Origin: Bacteroides eggerthii
GTDB lineage: Bacteria; Bacteroidota; Bacteroidia; Bacteroidales; Bacteroidaceae
Reading direction: 5' to 3'
Length of the DNA: 64,000 bases
Assembly: GCF_025146565.1 (NCBI RefSeq)
Contig: NZ_CP102258.1
Span: 682,001 to 746,000 of the forward strand
In this document: positions 6,622-55,112 of the stretch, piece by piece
How the letters are laid out: every line of letters begins with the position of its first letter
Position numbering within the stretch: the first letter of the stretch is position 1
The notes under the pieces: model-generated
The model's database searches: none
The model's input: the letters and a program-made list of their open reading frames with translations, nothing else
What the model was told of the DNA's origin: nothing
Position numbers and translations under genes: made by a program

Positions 6622-8448
6622 ATGAAAAGCCGTTGTATTCATATATGTATACTTCTATGTCTGTATGTTTATAATCTGTACGGACAAACACCCGATGACA
6701 ATATTATTATCACAAAATGCAGCGACTCCTATATTTTTGAGGAGAAAGACGGCATCCCCATTGTATCCAACCGGAAAGAGATATCCTATGAAGCAACAAG
6801 AATGGGAGCCTCTCTGCAACCCCACACCTATTACGGAGAGTTCATCTCACTGGACAAGGCTTCTGCCAAAGGGGGAGGGAAAGCCGAATATAAAAGCATC
6901 ACACCAGAAAATGTCTTCTTTGACGACAGCAAAGTCTGCTTTTTCAATCTCTACCTTGATCGGAAAGGGAAAAAAACAGAAGCATCGTTCAAGCGCACTT
7001 TTCACGACCTGCATTATTTTACGCGGGTCTACCTGGGCGAAGACTACTTCATCAGAGAAAAGCAACTGACATTAATCATCCCACAATCGCTTTCCCGCTT
7101 CCACCTGACGGAAAAAAACTTCAGTCCGGCCATTCACTGTGAACGCAGCATCAACAGCGCAGGCGACTCGGTATTCACCTATGTCGTGACAAACATGCCC
7201 GCCATGAAAGACGAGAAGCAGATGCCGGCAACAGGCAAAGTCTATCCGCATATATTGATCACAGGGTCGTTCAAAGACTACCACGATATGTACTGCTGGT
7301 CCAACAAACTGGCACAAGTGGACTGCAACGTGCCCGAAATCGATATTCTATTGACAAAGATCACTGCCGGCTGCCATACCGACATGGAAAAAATACGCAA
7401 TACGTATGCCTGGGTACAACAGAACATCCGCTACATCGCCTTCGAAGCAGGCATATTGGGCCACAGGCCCGATACTCCCGCAGAAGTTCTCCGCAAACGT
7501 TACGGTGACTGCAAAGGAATGTCACTCCTGCTCCGCACATTGCTGAAAGCACAGGGATTTGACGCCCGGCTCACCGACATAGGCACCATAGACATCCCCT
7601 ACCGGATGAGTGAGATAGCAACGCTTGCATCTGCCAACCACATGATATGCAGCCTTATCTATCAGGGAAAAACCTATTATCTGGACGCCACCAACGAATA
7701 TATTCCGTTGGAATTCATACCCGGAAGCATACAGGGCAGGGAAGCTATGATAGAAAACGGAGAAGAATGTATCGTACAGACGGTACCCATATTGAACAGT
7801 AGTGCTTCTACGGACAGCCTGTATTACACTTGCACCCTCTCCGGTGAGCAAACAGACAGAGTGCTGCAAGGCAAGGCAACCCGCAGCTGGAGTGGAGACA
7901 TGAAAGAATTCTTCCTCACAGCCTATCATAAAAACGACAAAAGCGACCGCGAAGAACACCTGCTTCGTACACTGGCGGGAAACAATCATAACTATCAAGT
8001 CGGCTCCGTCAAATGGATACAACAAGAACCCCAACAGCAATGGGCCATACTGGCAGGAACAGTCATAAACAACAGTGCCGTACAAGTTGCAGACAGCGAG
8101 TTCTACATTGAATTAGACCTTCACAACGACCTGTTCGACCAACCCATAGACACCCTCAAACGCATACATGATTATGAGTTGCCACTCCGTTGCCGCATTG
8201 TGCGTCACACAGAATTAGAAATACCCGCAGGCTATACCCTTGTCCATTGCCCCAAAGGAATTTCAATCCATGCGCCACAAGGCACACTCCACTGTTCCTA
8301 CAACAAGCAAGGGGAGAAAATCATCTTCCGGAAAGTAATGGAAATCAAAGAGAAACTCATTCACCGTAATGACATTGTAGCTTGGAACGAGAACCTGCGG
8401 AAATGGGCTGATACATGCAATGAACAAATTATTCTCAAAAAACAATAA
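6622..8448 (+). CDS. Secreted DUF3857/transglutaminase-like protein, catalytic triad intact
   Basis: A 608 aa protein with an N-terminal signal peptide (MKSRCIHICILLCLYVYNLYGQ), an N-terminal DUF3857-like beta region, and a central transglutaminase-like fold. The triad is visible: C297 in RYGDCKGMSLLL, H340 in SANHMICSL, and D355 in YYLDATNEY. Proteins of this architecture are common in Bacteroidetes and are thought to be exported. Neither substrate nor reaction is established, and peptidase as well as amide-transfer activity is known in the fold. It overlaps nothing and is followed after 2 bp by a paralogue that has lost part of the triad, so the two are co-expressed and may work as a pair. 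Confidence 0.82.
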   Translation: MKSRCIHICILLCLYVYNLYGQTPDDNIIITKCSDSYIFEEKDGIPIVSNRKEISYEATRMGASLQPHTYYGEFISLDKASAKGGGKAEYKSITPENVFFDDSKVCFFNLYLDRKGKKTEASFKRTFHDLHYFTRVYLGEDYFIREKQLTLIIPQSLSRFHLTEKNFSPAIHCERSINSAGDSVFTYVVTNMPAMKDEKQMPATGKVYPHILITGSFKDYHDMYCWSNKLAQVDCNVPEIDILLTKITAGCHTDMEKIRNTYAWVQQNIRYIAFEAGILGHRPDTPAEVLRKRYGDCKGMSLLLRTLLKAQGFDARLTDIGTIDIPYRMSEIATLASANHMICSLIYQGKTYYLDATNEYIPLEFIPGSIQGREAMIENGEECIVQTVPILNSSASTDSLYYTCTLSGEQTDRVLQGKATRSWSGDMKEFFLTAYHKNDKSDREEHLLRTLAGNNHNYQVGSVKWIQQEPQQQWAILAGTVINNSAVQVADSEFYIELDLHNDLFDQPIDTLKRIHDYELPLRCRIVRHTELEIPAGYTLVHCPKGISIHAPQGTLHCSYNKQGEKIIFRKVMEIKEKLIHRNDIVAWNENLRKWADTCNEQIILKKQ

Positions 8449-41678: not shown

Positions 41679-42557
41679 ATGCATACAACGAAGAACTATA
41701 TTTATCATCTCATAGCCATTCTTACCGTAGGGATATGGGGACTGACGTTTATTTCTACAAAAGTATTGATAGAGCATGGACTTTCTCCGCAGGAGATATT
41801 TTTGCTTCGTTTTCTGATGGCTTATCTGGGAATTTGGTTTATCTCTCCGCGCAAACTGTTTGCCGATAATTGGAAAGATGAACTTTGGTTGCTGTGGGGC
41901 GGCGTTACGGGCGGTTCTTTCTACTTCTTTACGGAGAATACGGCATTGGAAATCACACTGGCCACCAATGTGGCTTTTATTGTTTGTACGGCTCCGCTGC
42001 TCACCACTATTTTGTCCTTGCTGATCTATAAAAAAGAAAAAGCCACCGCCGGACTGGTGGGCGGTTCCCTGCTGGCGCTGGTGGGGGTGGCGTTGGTGGT
42101 CTATAACGGCCATTTCATATTGAAGATTCCACCGCTTGGCGATTTCCTGACTCTTCTTGCCGCCTTCTCCTGGGCGTTCTACAGCCTGATAATGAAAAAA
42201 ATGTCCGGGCGTTATCGTACGACTTTCATTACCCGCAAGATTTTCTTCTACGGAATACTGACTATTCTTCCCGCTTTTATCCTTCATCCCTGGCAATTTT
42301 CTCTTTCCGGACTTTGGCAGCCGGCGGTTTGGATGAACCTTCTTTTTCTGGGTGTACTTGCTTCTCTGGTTTGCTTTGTGGTGTGGAACATCATTTTGAA
42401 GCAATTGGGTACGGTGCGGGCTTCCAACTACATTTATTTGAATCCGCTTTTCACGCTGATAGGTTCCGCTGTCCTGCTGGACGAACAGTTCACCGTAATG
42501 TCACTCATGGGAGCCATGCTCATATTGGGCGGTGTGTATTGGGCGGGAAAGAGATAA
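41679..42557 (+). CDS. EamA/DMT-family transporter
   Basis: A 292 aa inner-membrane protein with ten hydrophobic segments arranged as two EamA repeats. The first starts at YHLIAILTVGIWGLTFISTKVLI; the second starts at PLGDFLTLLAAFSWAFYSLIMKKM. SNYIYLNPLFTLIGSAVLLDEQFT is also typical of the family. Members export or import metabolites such as amino acids, sugars or cofactors, and the substrate here is unknown. The ATG at 41679 is chosen because a promoter -7 element lies inside the longer frame. It is flanked upstream by a palindrome cluster and downstream by the small RNA gene, which is read toward it. Confidence 0.88.
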   Translation: MHTTKNYIYHLIAILTVGIWGLTFISTKVLIEHGLSPQEIFLLRFLMAYLGIWFISPRKLFADNWKDELWLLWGGVTGGSFYFFTENTALEITLATNVAFIVCTAPLLTTILSLLIYKKEKATAGLVGGSLLALVGVALVVYNGHFILKIPPLGDFLTLLAAFSWAFYSLIMKKMSGRYRTTFITRKIFFYGILTILPAFILHPWQFSLSGLWQPAVWMNLLFLGVLASLVCFVVWNIILKQLGTVRASNYIYLNPLFTLIGSAVLLDEQFTVMSLMGAMLILGGVYWAGKR

Positions 42558-42583
42558 AGGGGAAAGAGGAGACCCATGGGCAT

Positions 42584-42645
42584 AAAAAAAGGAGTACCGC
42601 TGTACTCCAACCTTTGTTAACCTTAAATCTAATACTATGAAAAAC
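42584..42645 (-). ncRNA. Small RNA gene with exact promoter and terminator
   Basis: The minus strand reads TTTG (42682-42679), then 19 bases, then TACCTTTG (42659-42652), a full match to the Bacteroides promoter. About 40 bases later a 7-bp stem GGAGTAC/GTACTCC (42608-42591) with a four-base loop is followed by seven T (42590-42584). The transcript would start near 42645 and be about 60 bases long. It contains no plausible reading frame. The body (GTATTAGATTTAAGGTTAAC) looks like sequence I have seen repeated in other Bacteroides genomes, possibly a paralogous sRNA family; that memory cannot be checked here. Confidence 0.7.
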
Positions 42646-42651
42646 ACATTG

Positions 42652-42682
42652 CAAAGGTACGGACTTTTTGGAAATCTCCAAA
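42652..42682 (-). promoter_or_regulatory. Promoter of the small RNA gene
   Basis: TTTG-N19-TACCTTTG on the minus strand is the best promoter match in the window. Confidence 0.75.
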
Positions 42683-42843: not shown

Positions 42844-45459
42844 GTGAATGAAGATATTGTCCTTACCCCGATGATGAAGCAGTTCCTTGATTTGAAGGCA
42901 AAACATCCTGATGCCGTCATGCTGTTTCGTTGTGGTGACTTCTATGAGACTTATTCCACCGATGCCATTGTAGCTGCCGAGATATTGGGCATTACTTTGA
43001 CGAAGCGTGCCAATGGCAAAGGGAAAACAATCGAAATGGCGGGATTTCCTCACCATGCGCTCGATACGTATCTGCCCAAACTGATACGTGCGGGTAAACG
43101 CGTAGCCATTTGTGACCAGCTGGAAGATCCGAAGCTCACCAAAAAGCTGGTGAAACGCGGCATCACCGAATTGGTGACTCCGGGTGTGTCCATCAACGAC
43201 AATGTGCTGAACTACCGGGAGAATAACTTCCTTGCCGCCGTTCACTTCGGTAAGGGTGCCTGCGGAGTGTCATTCCTGGATATTTCCACCGGTGAGTTCC
43301 TGACAGCGGAAGGACCTTTCGATTACGTCGATAAGTTGTTGAATAATTTTGCCCCGAAAGAAGTGCTTTTTGAGCGTGGCCGCCGGGGAATGTTTGAAGG
43401 CAATTTCGGCAGCAAATTCTTTACGTTCGAGTTGGACGACTGGGTGTTTACGGAGACCACCGCCCGCGAGAAACTGCTGAAACACTTCGAAGTCAAGAAC
43501 CTGAAAGGATTTGGGGTGGAACATCTCAAGAATGGCATCATTGCTTCGGGGGCTGTCTTGCAGTATCTCATTATGACGCAGCATACCCAGATAGGGCACA
43601 TCACTTCGTTGGCCCGCATAGAGGAAGACAAGTACGTCCGTCTGGATAAGTTTACGGTGCGCAGTCTCGAATTGATGGGCAGCATGAACGACGGCGGCAG
43701 CAGTCTGTTGAATGTGATAGACAGGACTATCAGCCCGATGGGAGCCCGTTTGTTGAAGCGCTGGATGGTGTTTCCCCTGAAAGACGTACAGCCCATTAAC
43801 GAACGGTTGAACGTAGTGGAATACTTCTTCCGCAAACCCGACTTCAAGGAGCTGATCGAAGAACAGCTGCATCTGATAGGAGATTTGGAACGCATCATTT
43901 CCAAAGTAGCCGTAGGGCGCGTTTCTCCGCGCGAAGTGGTTGCCCTGAAGGTGGCATTGCAGGCTGTTGAACCTATCAAGGAAGCCTGTATGGATGCAGA
44001 TAATGCCAGTCTGAACCACATCGGCGAACAACTGAATATCTGCCGGTCCATTCGCGACCGCATTGACAAGGAGGTCAACAACGATCCTCCGTTGCTTATT
44101 AATAAAGGCGGCGTGATAAAATCGGGCGTGAATGCCGGGTTGGACGAGTTGCGCCAAATAGCCTATTCCGGCAAGGATTATCTCTTGCAGGTGCAGCAAC
44201 GTGAAAGTGAACTGACGGGTATTCCCAGTCTGAAGATAGGGTATAATAATGTCTTTGGCTATTATATCGAAGTGCGCAATGTGCACAAGGATAAAGTGCC
44301 GCAGGAGTGGATCCGCAAGCAGACCTTGGTCAATGCCGAACGTTACATTACGCAGGAATTGAAAGAGTATGAAGAGAAAATACTCGGCGCTGAGGACAAG
44401 ATTCTGGTGTTGGAAACGCAACTTTATACGGAGCTGGTGCAGTCTTTGAGCGAATTTATTCCTGCCATTCAGATTAATGCAAATCAGATAGCGCGTCTGG
44501 ACTGTCTGCTTTCGTTTGCCACCGCCGCCCGCGAAAACAATTATATCCGTCCGGTAATTTCCGACGATGAGGTTTTGGAGATACATCAGGGACGCCATCC
44601 GGTCATTGAGAAGCAACTTCCCATAGGCGAGAAATACATAGCCAACGATGTGATGCTGGACAGCAGTACGCAACAGATAATCATCATCACCGGTCCTAAT
44701 ATGGCGGGTAAGTCTGCATTGCTCCGCCAAACCGCCTTGATCACGCTTATGGCGCAGATCGGCAGTTTCGTTCCGGCGGAAAGCGCACACATCGGTCTGG
44801 TGGACAAGATATTTACCCGCGTGGGTGCCAGCGACAACATTTCCGTAGGCGAATCTACGTTTATGGTGGAGATGAACGAGGCGGCGGACATCTTGAACAA
44901 TCTCTCCTCCCGCAGTCTGGTGCTCTTTGATGAGTTGGGGCGCGGCACTTCCACTTACGACGGCATTTCCATTGCATGGGCCATTGTGGAATACATCCAC
45001 GAACATCCTCGTGCCAAGGCCCGTACGCTGTTTGCCACGCACTATCACGAACTGAATGAAATGGAGAAGTCCTTCAAACGCATCAAGAACTATAATGTGT
45101 CGGTGAAGGAAATCGATAATAAAGTCATTTTCCTGCGTAAACTGGAACGGGGTGGCAGCGAACACTCTTTCGGTATTCATGTGGCTAAAATGGCGGGTAT
45201 GCCCAAAAGTATCGTGAAACGTGCCGCTGACATTTTGAAGCAACTTGAGACGGACAACCGTCAACAGGGTGTATCAAGCAAACCTATGGCCGAAGTGGGA
45301 GAGATGCGTGGCGGCATGCAGCTCAGCTTCTTCCAGCTTGATGACCCGATACTGTGCCAAATACGTGATGAGATACTGAATCTGGACGTAAATAACCTGA
45401 CGCCGCTTGAAGCGTTGAACAAGCTGAATGACATCAAGCGGATAGTAAAAGGGAAGTAG
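42844..45459 (+). CDS. mutS: DNA mismatch repair protein MutS
   Basis: An 871 aa ATPase that binds mismatches and starts repair with MutL. The mismatch-reading Phe-x-Glu is in [16 protein letters not shown] (about residues 27-42), followed by connector, lever and clamp regions. The ATPase has Walker [14 protein letters not shown], the [17 protein letters not shown]alker B/signature segment, and the [11 protein letters not shown] switch. The start is GTG (42844); no in-frame ATG lies nearby, and the family begins with [17 protein letters not shown] right after it. The C-terminal dimerisation tail is present. It is a single gene with its own promoter and terminator. Confidence 0.97.
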
Positions 45460-54209: not shown

Positions 54210-55112
54210 TTAAAAGAACTTCATTTCTTCGCCTTTGATTTCCGAGAGTAATAGATTTGCCAAACGGCTGGTTCCCAAACGGAATAATTCATTGTTCAGC
54301 CATTCCTCTCCAAGCACTTCTTTCACAATGGTATAGTAAATCAGTGCGTCATTTACACAGTTGATGCCGCCTGCCGGTTTGAAACCAATCTTATTGCCTG
54401 TCAACGCATGGTATTCCTTAATGGCCTGGCACATTACGTATGCTGCTTCCGGAGTAGCGGCAGGCTGTTGTTTTCCGGTAGAGGTCTTGATGAAATCAGC
54501 TCCGGCATACATGGATAGGATAGAGGCTTTCTTGATGTTTGCTGCCGTTTTCAAAGCTCCCGTCTCCAAGATTACTTTCAGGTGGTGCTCTTTGCAGGTA
54601 GCTTTCAGTTCTTGTATTTCATCGCACATGGTTTCATAGTCTCCGCTCAGGAACTTGCCTACAGAGATGACGATGTCTATTTCGTCAGCACCTTCCATAA
54701 TGGCCATGGCGGTTTCGGCAATTTTTACTTCTATAAAAGTTTGGGAAGAAGGGAAACCTGCTGATACACAGGCAATTTTTACATCTTCTACTTCCAATGT
54801 ATCTTTTACTACTTCTGCAAAATTGGGATATACACAGATAGCTGCCACGTTTTTCAGGTCGGGAAATTCTTCGTCAAACCGGTTTACTTTTTGAGTAAAT
54901 TTCATGACGCTTTCATCGCTGTCTGTACTGTTGAGCGTGGTGAGGTCAATGCAATTGAACAGGAATTTCTTTACTTCCGGAGTGTTGTTTGCAGGCACTT
55001 TCTCCTCGATTATTTTGGCTACTTCTGCAGCCACTTCCGCATCGTTCAAATTGGTGTTGTACTTTGCCAAAGCAGCATCGTACTTGTTCTGGGTGGATTC
55101 ATTATTCTCCAT
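54210..55112 (-). CDS. deoC: Deoxyribose-phosphate aldolase
   Basis: A 300 aa class I aldolase that splits 2-deoxyribose 5-phosphate into acetaldehyde and glyceraldehyde 3-phosphate in deoxynucleoside breakdown. Motifs include AICVYPNFAEVVKDTL, GADEIDIVISVGKFLSG, the Schiff-base Lys region LKVILETGALK, GADFIKTSTGKQ, and IGFKPAGGINCV. The start at 55112 (MENNEST) is preferred; it overlaps the stop of the upstream pyrophosphohydrolase gene by 11 bp. It is the last gene of a minus-strand operon starting at mnmG. Confidence 0.94.
   Translation of the reverse strand: MENNESTQNKYDAALAKYNTNLNDAEVAAEVAKIIEEKVPANNTPEVKKFLFNCIDLTTLNSTDSDESVMKFTQKVNRFDEEFPDLKNVAAICVYPNFAEVVKDTLEVEDVKIACVSAGFPSSQTFIEVKIAETAMAIMEGADEIDIVISVGKFLSGDYETMCDEIQELKATCKEHHLKVILETGALKTAANIKKASILSMYAGADFIKTSTGKQQPAATPEAAYVMCQAIKEYHALTGNKIGFKPAGGINCVNDALIYYTIVKEVLGEEWLNNELFRLGTSRLANLLLSEIKGEEMKFF

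Follow-up and report, generated by a model that had tools for sequence, protein, structure and literature searches.

The closest described system is the FopS group of small RNAs of Bacteroides thetaiotaomicron. According to the main text of PMC11697453, FopS has 14 members in that species and 12 to 15 in some others, is conserved within the Bacteroidaceae, is expressed at higher levels under bile salts and represses SusC-type transporters through start-codon pairing, an action antagonised by RbpB. The same main text reports northern blots with two FopS bands, of approximately 65 and 70 nt, and its Methods give a 35-nt query consensus of the FopS seed region. In the window analysed here, a 64,000-nt stretch of the Bacteroides eggerthii genome, we located on the minus strand an element that is almost certainly a gene for a FopS small RNA, about ten of which occur in the genome. 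Its product, judged from its sequence and by analogy with B. thetaiotaomicron, would act as a base-pairing repressor of glycan-transporter translation. What can be read from the sequence is a canonical promoter, a predicted transcript region of about 67 nt, a nearly invariant and largely unstructured seed and a covarying terminator stem. The features of the locus are as follows.

42682-42581, minus strand: whole element, from promoter to 3' end, read directly from the sequence
42652..42682, minus strand: promoter of the Bacteroides primary-sigma type, TTTG-N19-TACCTTTG, with TTTG at 42682-42679 and TACCTTTG at 42659-42652
42581..42647, minus strand: FopS small RNA gene, 67 nt, full-length match to Rfam RF04319
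42613..42647, minus strand: 5' seed region R1', 35 nt, mostly single-stranded, equal to the published consensus
42584..42608, minus strand: intrinsic terminator with a 7-bp stem, an AGCG loop and seven T, as folded
41679..42557, plus strand: DMT-type transporter gene, convergent neighbour, an ORF given for context only and named after the first-pass annotation
42844..45459, plus strand: mutS, divergent neighbour, an ORF named from its sequence, given for context and not part of the RNA

The first-pass annotation, made from the letters of the window, had described an exact Bacteroides promoter, a hairpin and seven T on the minus strand, and all three are present around a transcript region of about 67 nt, the start of which (near 42647) is set by the RF04319 model. 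TTTG-N19-TACCTTTG occurs once on the two strands of the 64-kb window, with 0.025 occurrences expected from 40 first-order Markov resamplings of the window, and the looser form TTTG-N18..21-TANNTTTG occurs three times, with 0.95 expected. The combination of a promoter with a hairpin plus T-run within 30-120 nt had a single occurrence in the window itself and did not arise in any of the 40 resampled windows; the hairpin, GGAGTAC-AGCG-GTACTCC, lies at 42608-42591 and the seven T at 42590-42584. The earlier claim that no reading frame fits also holds, in that no frame both opening and closing inside the 67 nt was found. The sole ATG forms the final three bases of the region, the frame of a GTG at the 5' end has no stop in its 22 codons before the 3' end is reached, and that of a TTG close to the terminator also runs off the end; mechanically called minus-strand ORFs of 56-77 aa span the whole element but have no support as genes. 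In the predicted fold, the 5' part is weakly paired and the terminator forms its 7-bp stem. The folding energy of the whole sequence was modestly below that of shuffled sequences (z -1.60, with 9 of 200 shuffles equally good), as expected for a small RNA that is mostly unstructured. We also observed that the plus strand opposite the seed (window 42625-42647, AAATCTAATACTATGAAAAACAC) resembles the start region of a SusC-type gene, and, on this sequence resemblance, an inverted fragment of such a leader could be the origin of FopS.

When the whole window was compared with Rfam, the only match above a curated cut-off was the element itself, which scored 78.2 bits with RF04319 (BTncRNA_FopS, "family of paralogous sRNAs"; cut-off 56) over model positions 1-71 of 71. 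Its first 35 nt are identical (35/35) to the seed consensus in the Methods of PMC11697453. The Rfam search proposed in the first-pass annotation thus bears out its suggestion of a regulatory RNA belonging to one of the paralogous families reported from Bacteroides. As it had anticipated, the genome has additional copies that come with a promoter and a terminator. Searching the genome with RF04319 gave 17 matches at E values up to 1, of which nine passed the cut-off; a tenth copy, at 49.1 bits, is under the cut-off and retains much of the seed, an eleventh match (41.4 bits) is the GibS gene of this genome, and the other six, at 31.9 bits or less, were weak and left out of the copy count. The nine copies fall into two terminator types, five of 67-70 nt and four of 72-73 nt, and these two size classes resemble the two northern bands of B. 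thetaiotaomicron FopS described in the main text of PMC11697453.

Beyond this genome, RF04319 matched 142 of the 151 sampled genomes of the family at E values up to 0.001, 127 of them over the cut-off, and 34 of the 149 sampled genomes of the order, 27 of them over the cut-off, both runs being made with stricter filters by which weak matches are lost. The matches in the order came from 25 family labels besides that of the window, 19 of them with scores over the cut-off. The nine family genomes without a match comprised eight of genus label g20, that is, all those sampled from it, and one of g12; among the other 29 genus labels, 28 had no miss and g12 had the one. A blastn match was also found in a Parabacteroides distasonis plasmid record, between two annotated genes.

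Sequences related to FopS are also present in phage DNA. The exact 29-nt seed was observed in 13 uncultivated viral contigs, nine of which have a matching TTTG-N-TANNTTTG promoter. The remaining four (L081, L085, L086 and L089) have a common variant whose 5' end and terminator are different and which lacks the TTTG box, for example at the following positions.

L086:5440-5530, plus strand: phage-type FopS variant
L081:803-890, minus strand: phage-type FopS variant

In L086, about 0.5 kb separates the variant from an integrase gene, downstream of which it is located; anti-repressor and repressor genes lie farther on (PHROGs), and the surroundings in L081 look the same by eye. The 5' sequence of the phage type was found in none of 399 family genomes, with up to three mismatches allowed. 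A FopS copy carried by a phage might lower the amount of SusC-type surface proteins or might mark an attachment site. In addition, a FopS-like sequence, matching at 88% over 77 nt, lies in the annotated record of Bacteroides phage BX-TP2 (PQ571285.1, L172:938-1014; source, antibiotic induction), in a part that carries no annotation, roughly 1 kb from an end; four other phage records gave shorter FopS matches.

We searched 60 genomes of the same genus with the first 150 residues of MutS and the intergenic DNA, and found MutS in 57. Within the 30 best-matching mutS loci, a set that includes the window's own and favours close relatives, FopS lies divergent and upstream of mutS in 26. In 25 of the 30, the number given by a search that allowed substitutions but no gaps, mutS is preceded on the opposite strand by a perfect 23-nt seed, located 228-351 nt away from a conserved motif of MutS; allowing gaps adds L098, the copy of which has a seed with one substitution and one deletion. 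No FopS was found within 1.2-1.5 kb upstream of mutS in the remaining four loci (L099, L113, L116 and L119). The locus L115 has two copies 248 nt apart, the second with its seed at 576 nt from the motif and the one nearer mutS having CTTG instead of TTTG; this pair is possibly a recent duplication.

Alignment of 26 mutS-linked copies, the L098 copy being left out, revealed TTTG-N19-TANNTTTG in 25, with the two middle bases varying, and CTTG instead of TTTG in the remaining one. The 35-nt body was unchanged in 24 of the 26, the other two having one inserted T, and the terminator stem was present in four versions (13, 9, 3 and 1 rows), each paired over 6-7 bp. The first-pass annotation would have been contradicted by promoters and terminators that drift in relatives; no such drift was seen, the boxes with their 19-base spacing being kept in 25 of 26 rows and the terminator pairing in 26 of 26. 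Since promoter boxes, seed and terminator pairing are kept, whereas the spacer and flanks drift among the aligned loci, the transcription signals and the seed look to be under selection at the mutS position. Because the head-to-head position is conserved, and for that reason only, it may be conceived that the mutS-linked copy is fixed and vertically inherited, and that mutS expression is tied to the bile-induced transcription of FopS through the divergent promoter; we regard this as a long shot. If true, the shut-off of glycan uptake and DNA repair would answer bile together. The word mutS is absent from the main text of PMC11697453, supplements aside.

To examine the predicted targets, we calculated duplex energies alone, with accessibility left out, between the seed and the 50 nt around the start (the 5'-most in-frame ATG) of the 30 best-scoring of the 46 SusC genes over the cut-off. 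The mean was -15.7 kcal/mol for these 30 and -9.6 for 42 controls, which were non-overlapping window ORFs of 150 codons or more, chosen mechanically and unscreened by function (Mann-Whitney p 1e-8), and duplexes at or below -14 kcal/mol were predicted for 21 of the 30 and two of the 42, respectively. With 300 shuffled seeds, neither the SusC mean nor the SusC-control difference was reached once, although shuffling controls for seed composition only and the SusC start regions are A+T-rich (GC 0.21). When the 50-nt frame was moved in steps of 25 from -300 to +300, the start-codon frame alone stood out (mean -15.66, 21 of 30 at or below -14), whereas at the 24 other offsets the means ranged from -8.36 to -10.56, and between 0 and 6 of the 30 genes lay at or below -14. 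For nine of the 30 SusC genes the duplex is weaker than -14, the window's own gene (L171, -7.9) giving the weakest of all; this gene is also counted among the 42 controls. The two strongly pairing controls are at 6622-8445 on the plus strand (-20.7) and 54213-55112 on the minus strand (-18.1). Pattern searches of the genome for complements of the seed gave 14 matches (3 with the reversed pattern) in one run and 39 (13 with the reversed pattern) in another; of the 39, nine were FopS genes, one was the GibS gene and nine others gave no locus. Reading 26 seed-complement loci, two places being read twice, gave 14 distinct places with an ATG-started frame of at least 200 codons, the products of which were judged by eye. 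As the pattern includes ATGAAA, and the search is thereby biased to starts and has no control, we rely on the duplex-energy test instead. From the target prediction, SusC repression would seem to be a role of FopS outside the model species as well.

The assignment to FopS has to be weighed against the possibility that the copy is a GibS-type RNA, a GlcNAc-responsive relative with two seeds. The GibS model RF04182 does match the copy, and the main text of PMC11697453 describes seed R1 as common to GibS and FopS, but the score is 40.1 bits, far from the cut-off of 115, and we therefore rejected GibS membership. Moreover, the copy is 67 nt in length, compared with 142 for the GibS model, it has the canonical promoter that the same main text assigns to FopS and not to GibS, and a distinct GibS gene above the cut-off (131.4 bits, C1:2844161-2844306) exists elsewhere in the genome, so that a GibS identity is extremely unlikely. 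The element could instead act in cis, as an antisense RNA to or a terminator for the DMT gene, or as a control on mutS. It is indeed directed at the convergent DMT gene, as the first-pass annotation had reported, with the T-run ending 27 positions short of the final base of the DMT stop codon (42557) and the Rfam match 24 positions short of it, and its promoter is divergent from mutS. However, within the upstream DNA covered, the DMT gene was found in just four of 25 mutS-linked loci, one of the four being that of the window, and the seed was found within 900 nt downstream in one of 15 DMT relatives selected by name (266 nt covered in L070). The DMT gene was thus rejected as a conserved partner, and the conserved neighbour is mutS (26 of 30 loci) rather than the one singled out earlier. 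On the plus strand, the hairpin is followed by AACCTTTG and no T-run. The predicted pairing of the seed with the start regions is weak for mutS (-9.1) and for DMT (-9.1 or -12.0, depending on the chosen start), and both mRNAs were rejected as FopS targets; a cis-acting role is accordingly very improbable.

A further view is that the copy is degenerate or silent and kept merely through the multicopy state of the family. It could be dispensable in view of the other copies that carry the same seed, four of the 30 mutS loci are without FopS, and the seed in L098 is changed. Against this, the boxes, the seed and the terminator pairing are kept at the mutS position, and we give degeneration very little weight.

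For a functional FopS copy, the mechanism proposed by analogy, transferred from the experiments in B. thetaiotaomicron, is that the RNA would be made in greater amounts under bile stress and that its seed would pair with the start-codon region of mRNAs for SusC-type glycan transporters and of certain other genes that come first in polysaccharide utilisation operons. Such pairing would block translation initiation, and the RRM protein RbpB would counteract it; two RRM_1 proteins are encoded in this genome. The analysis extends a published regulator to another genome, and mutS provides a fixed genomic address for comparing FopS copies across species, which helps to tell vertical inheritance from spread by mobile elements.

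Compared with the FopS family of B. thetaiotaomicron (RF04319), as described in the main text of PMC11697453, the window copy has an identical 35-nt seed, the canonical promoter, a single-stranded 5' part followed by a terminator hairpin, a multicopy setting and SusC start regions as predicted targets; unlike that species with its 14 members, this genome has nine copies over the cut-off and one weaker. With GibS (RF04182; PMC7366714) it has the R1 seed stretch in common, according to the main text of PMC11697453, but it is shorter, scores far under the GibS cut-off and occurs beside a separate GibS gene. The copy is an ordinary member of an already described family, and its position at mutS is common to many relatives.
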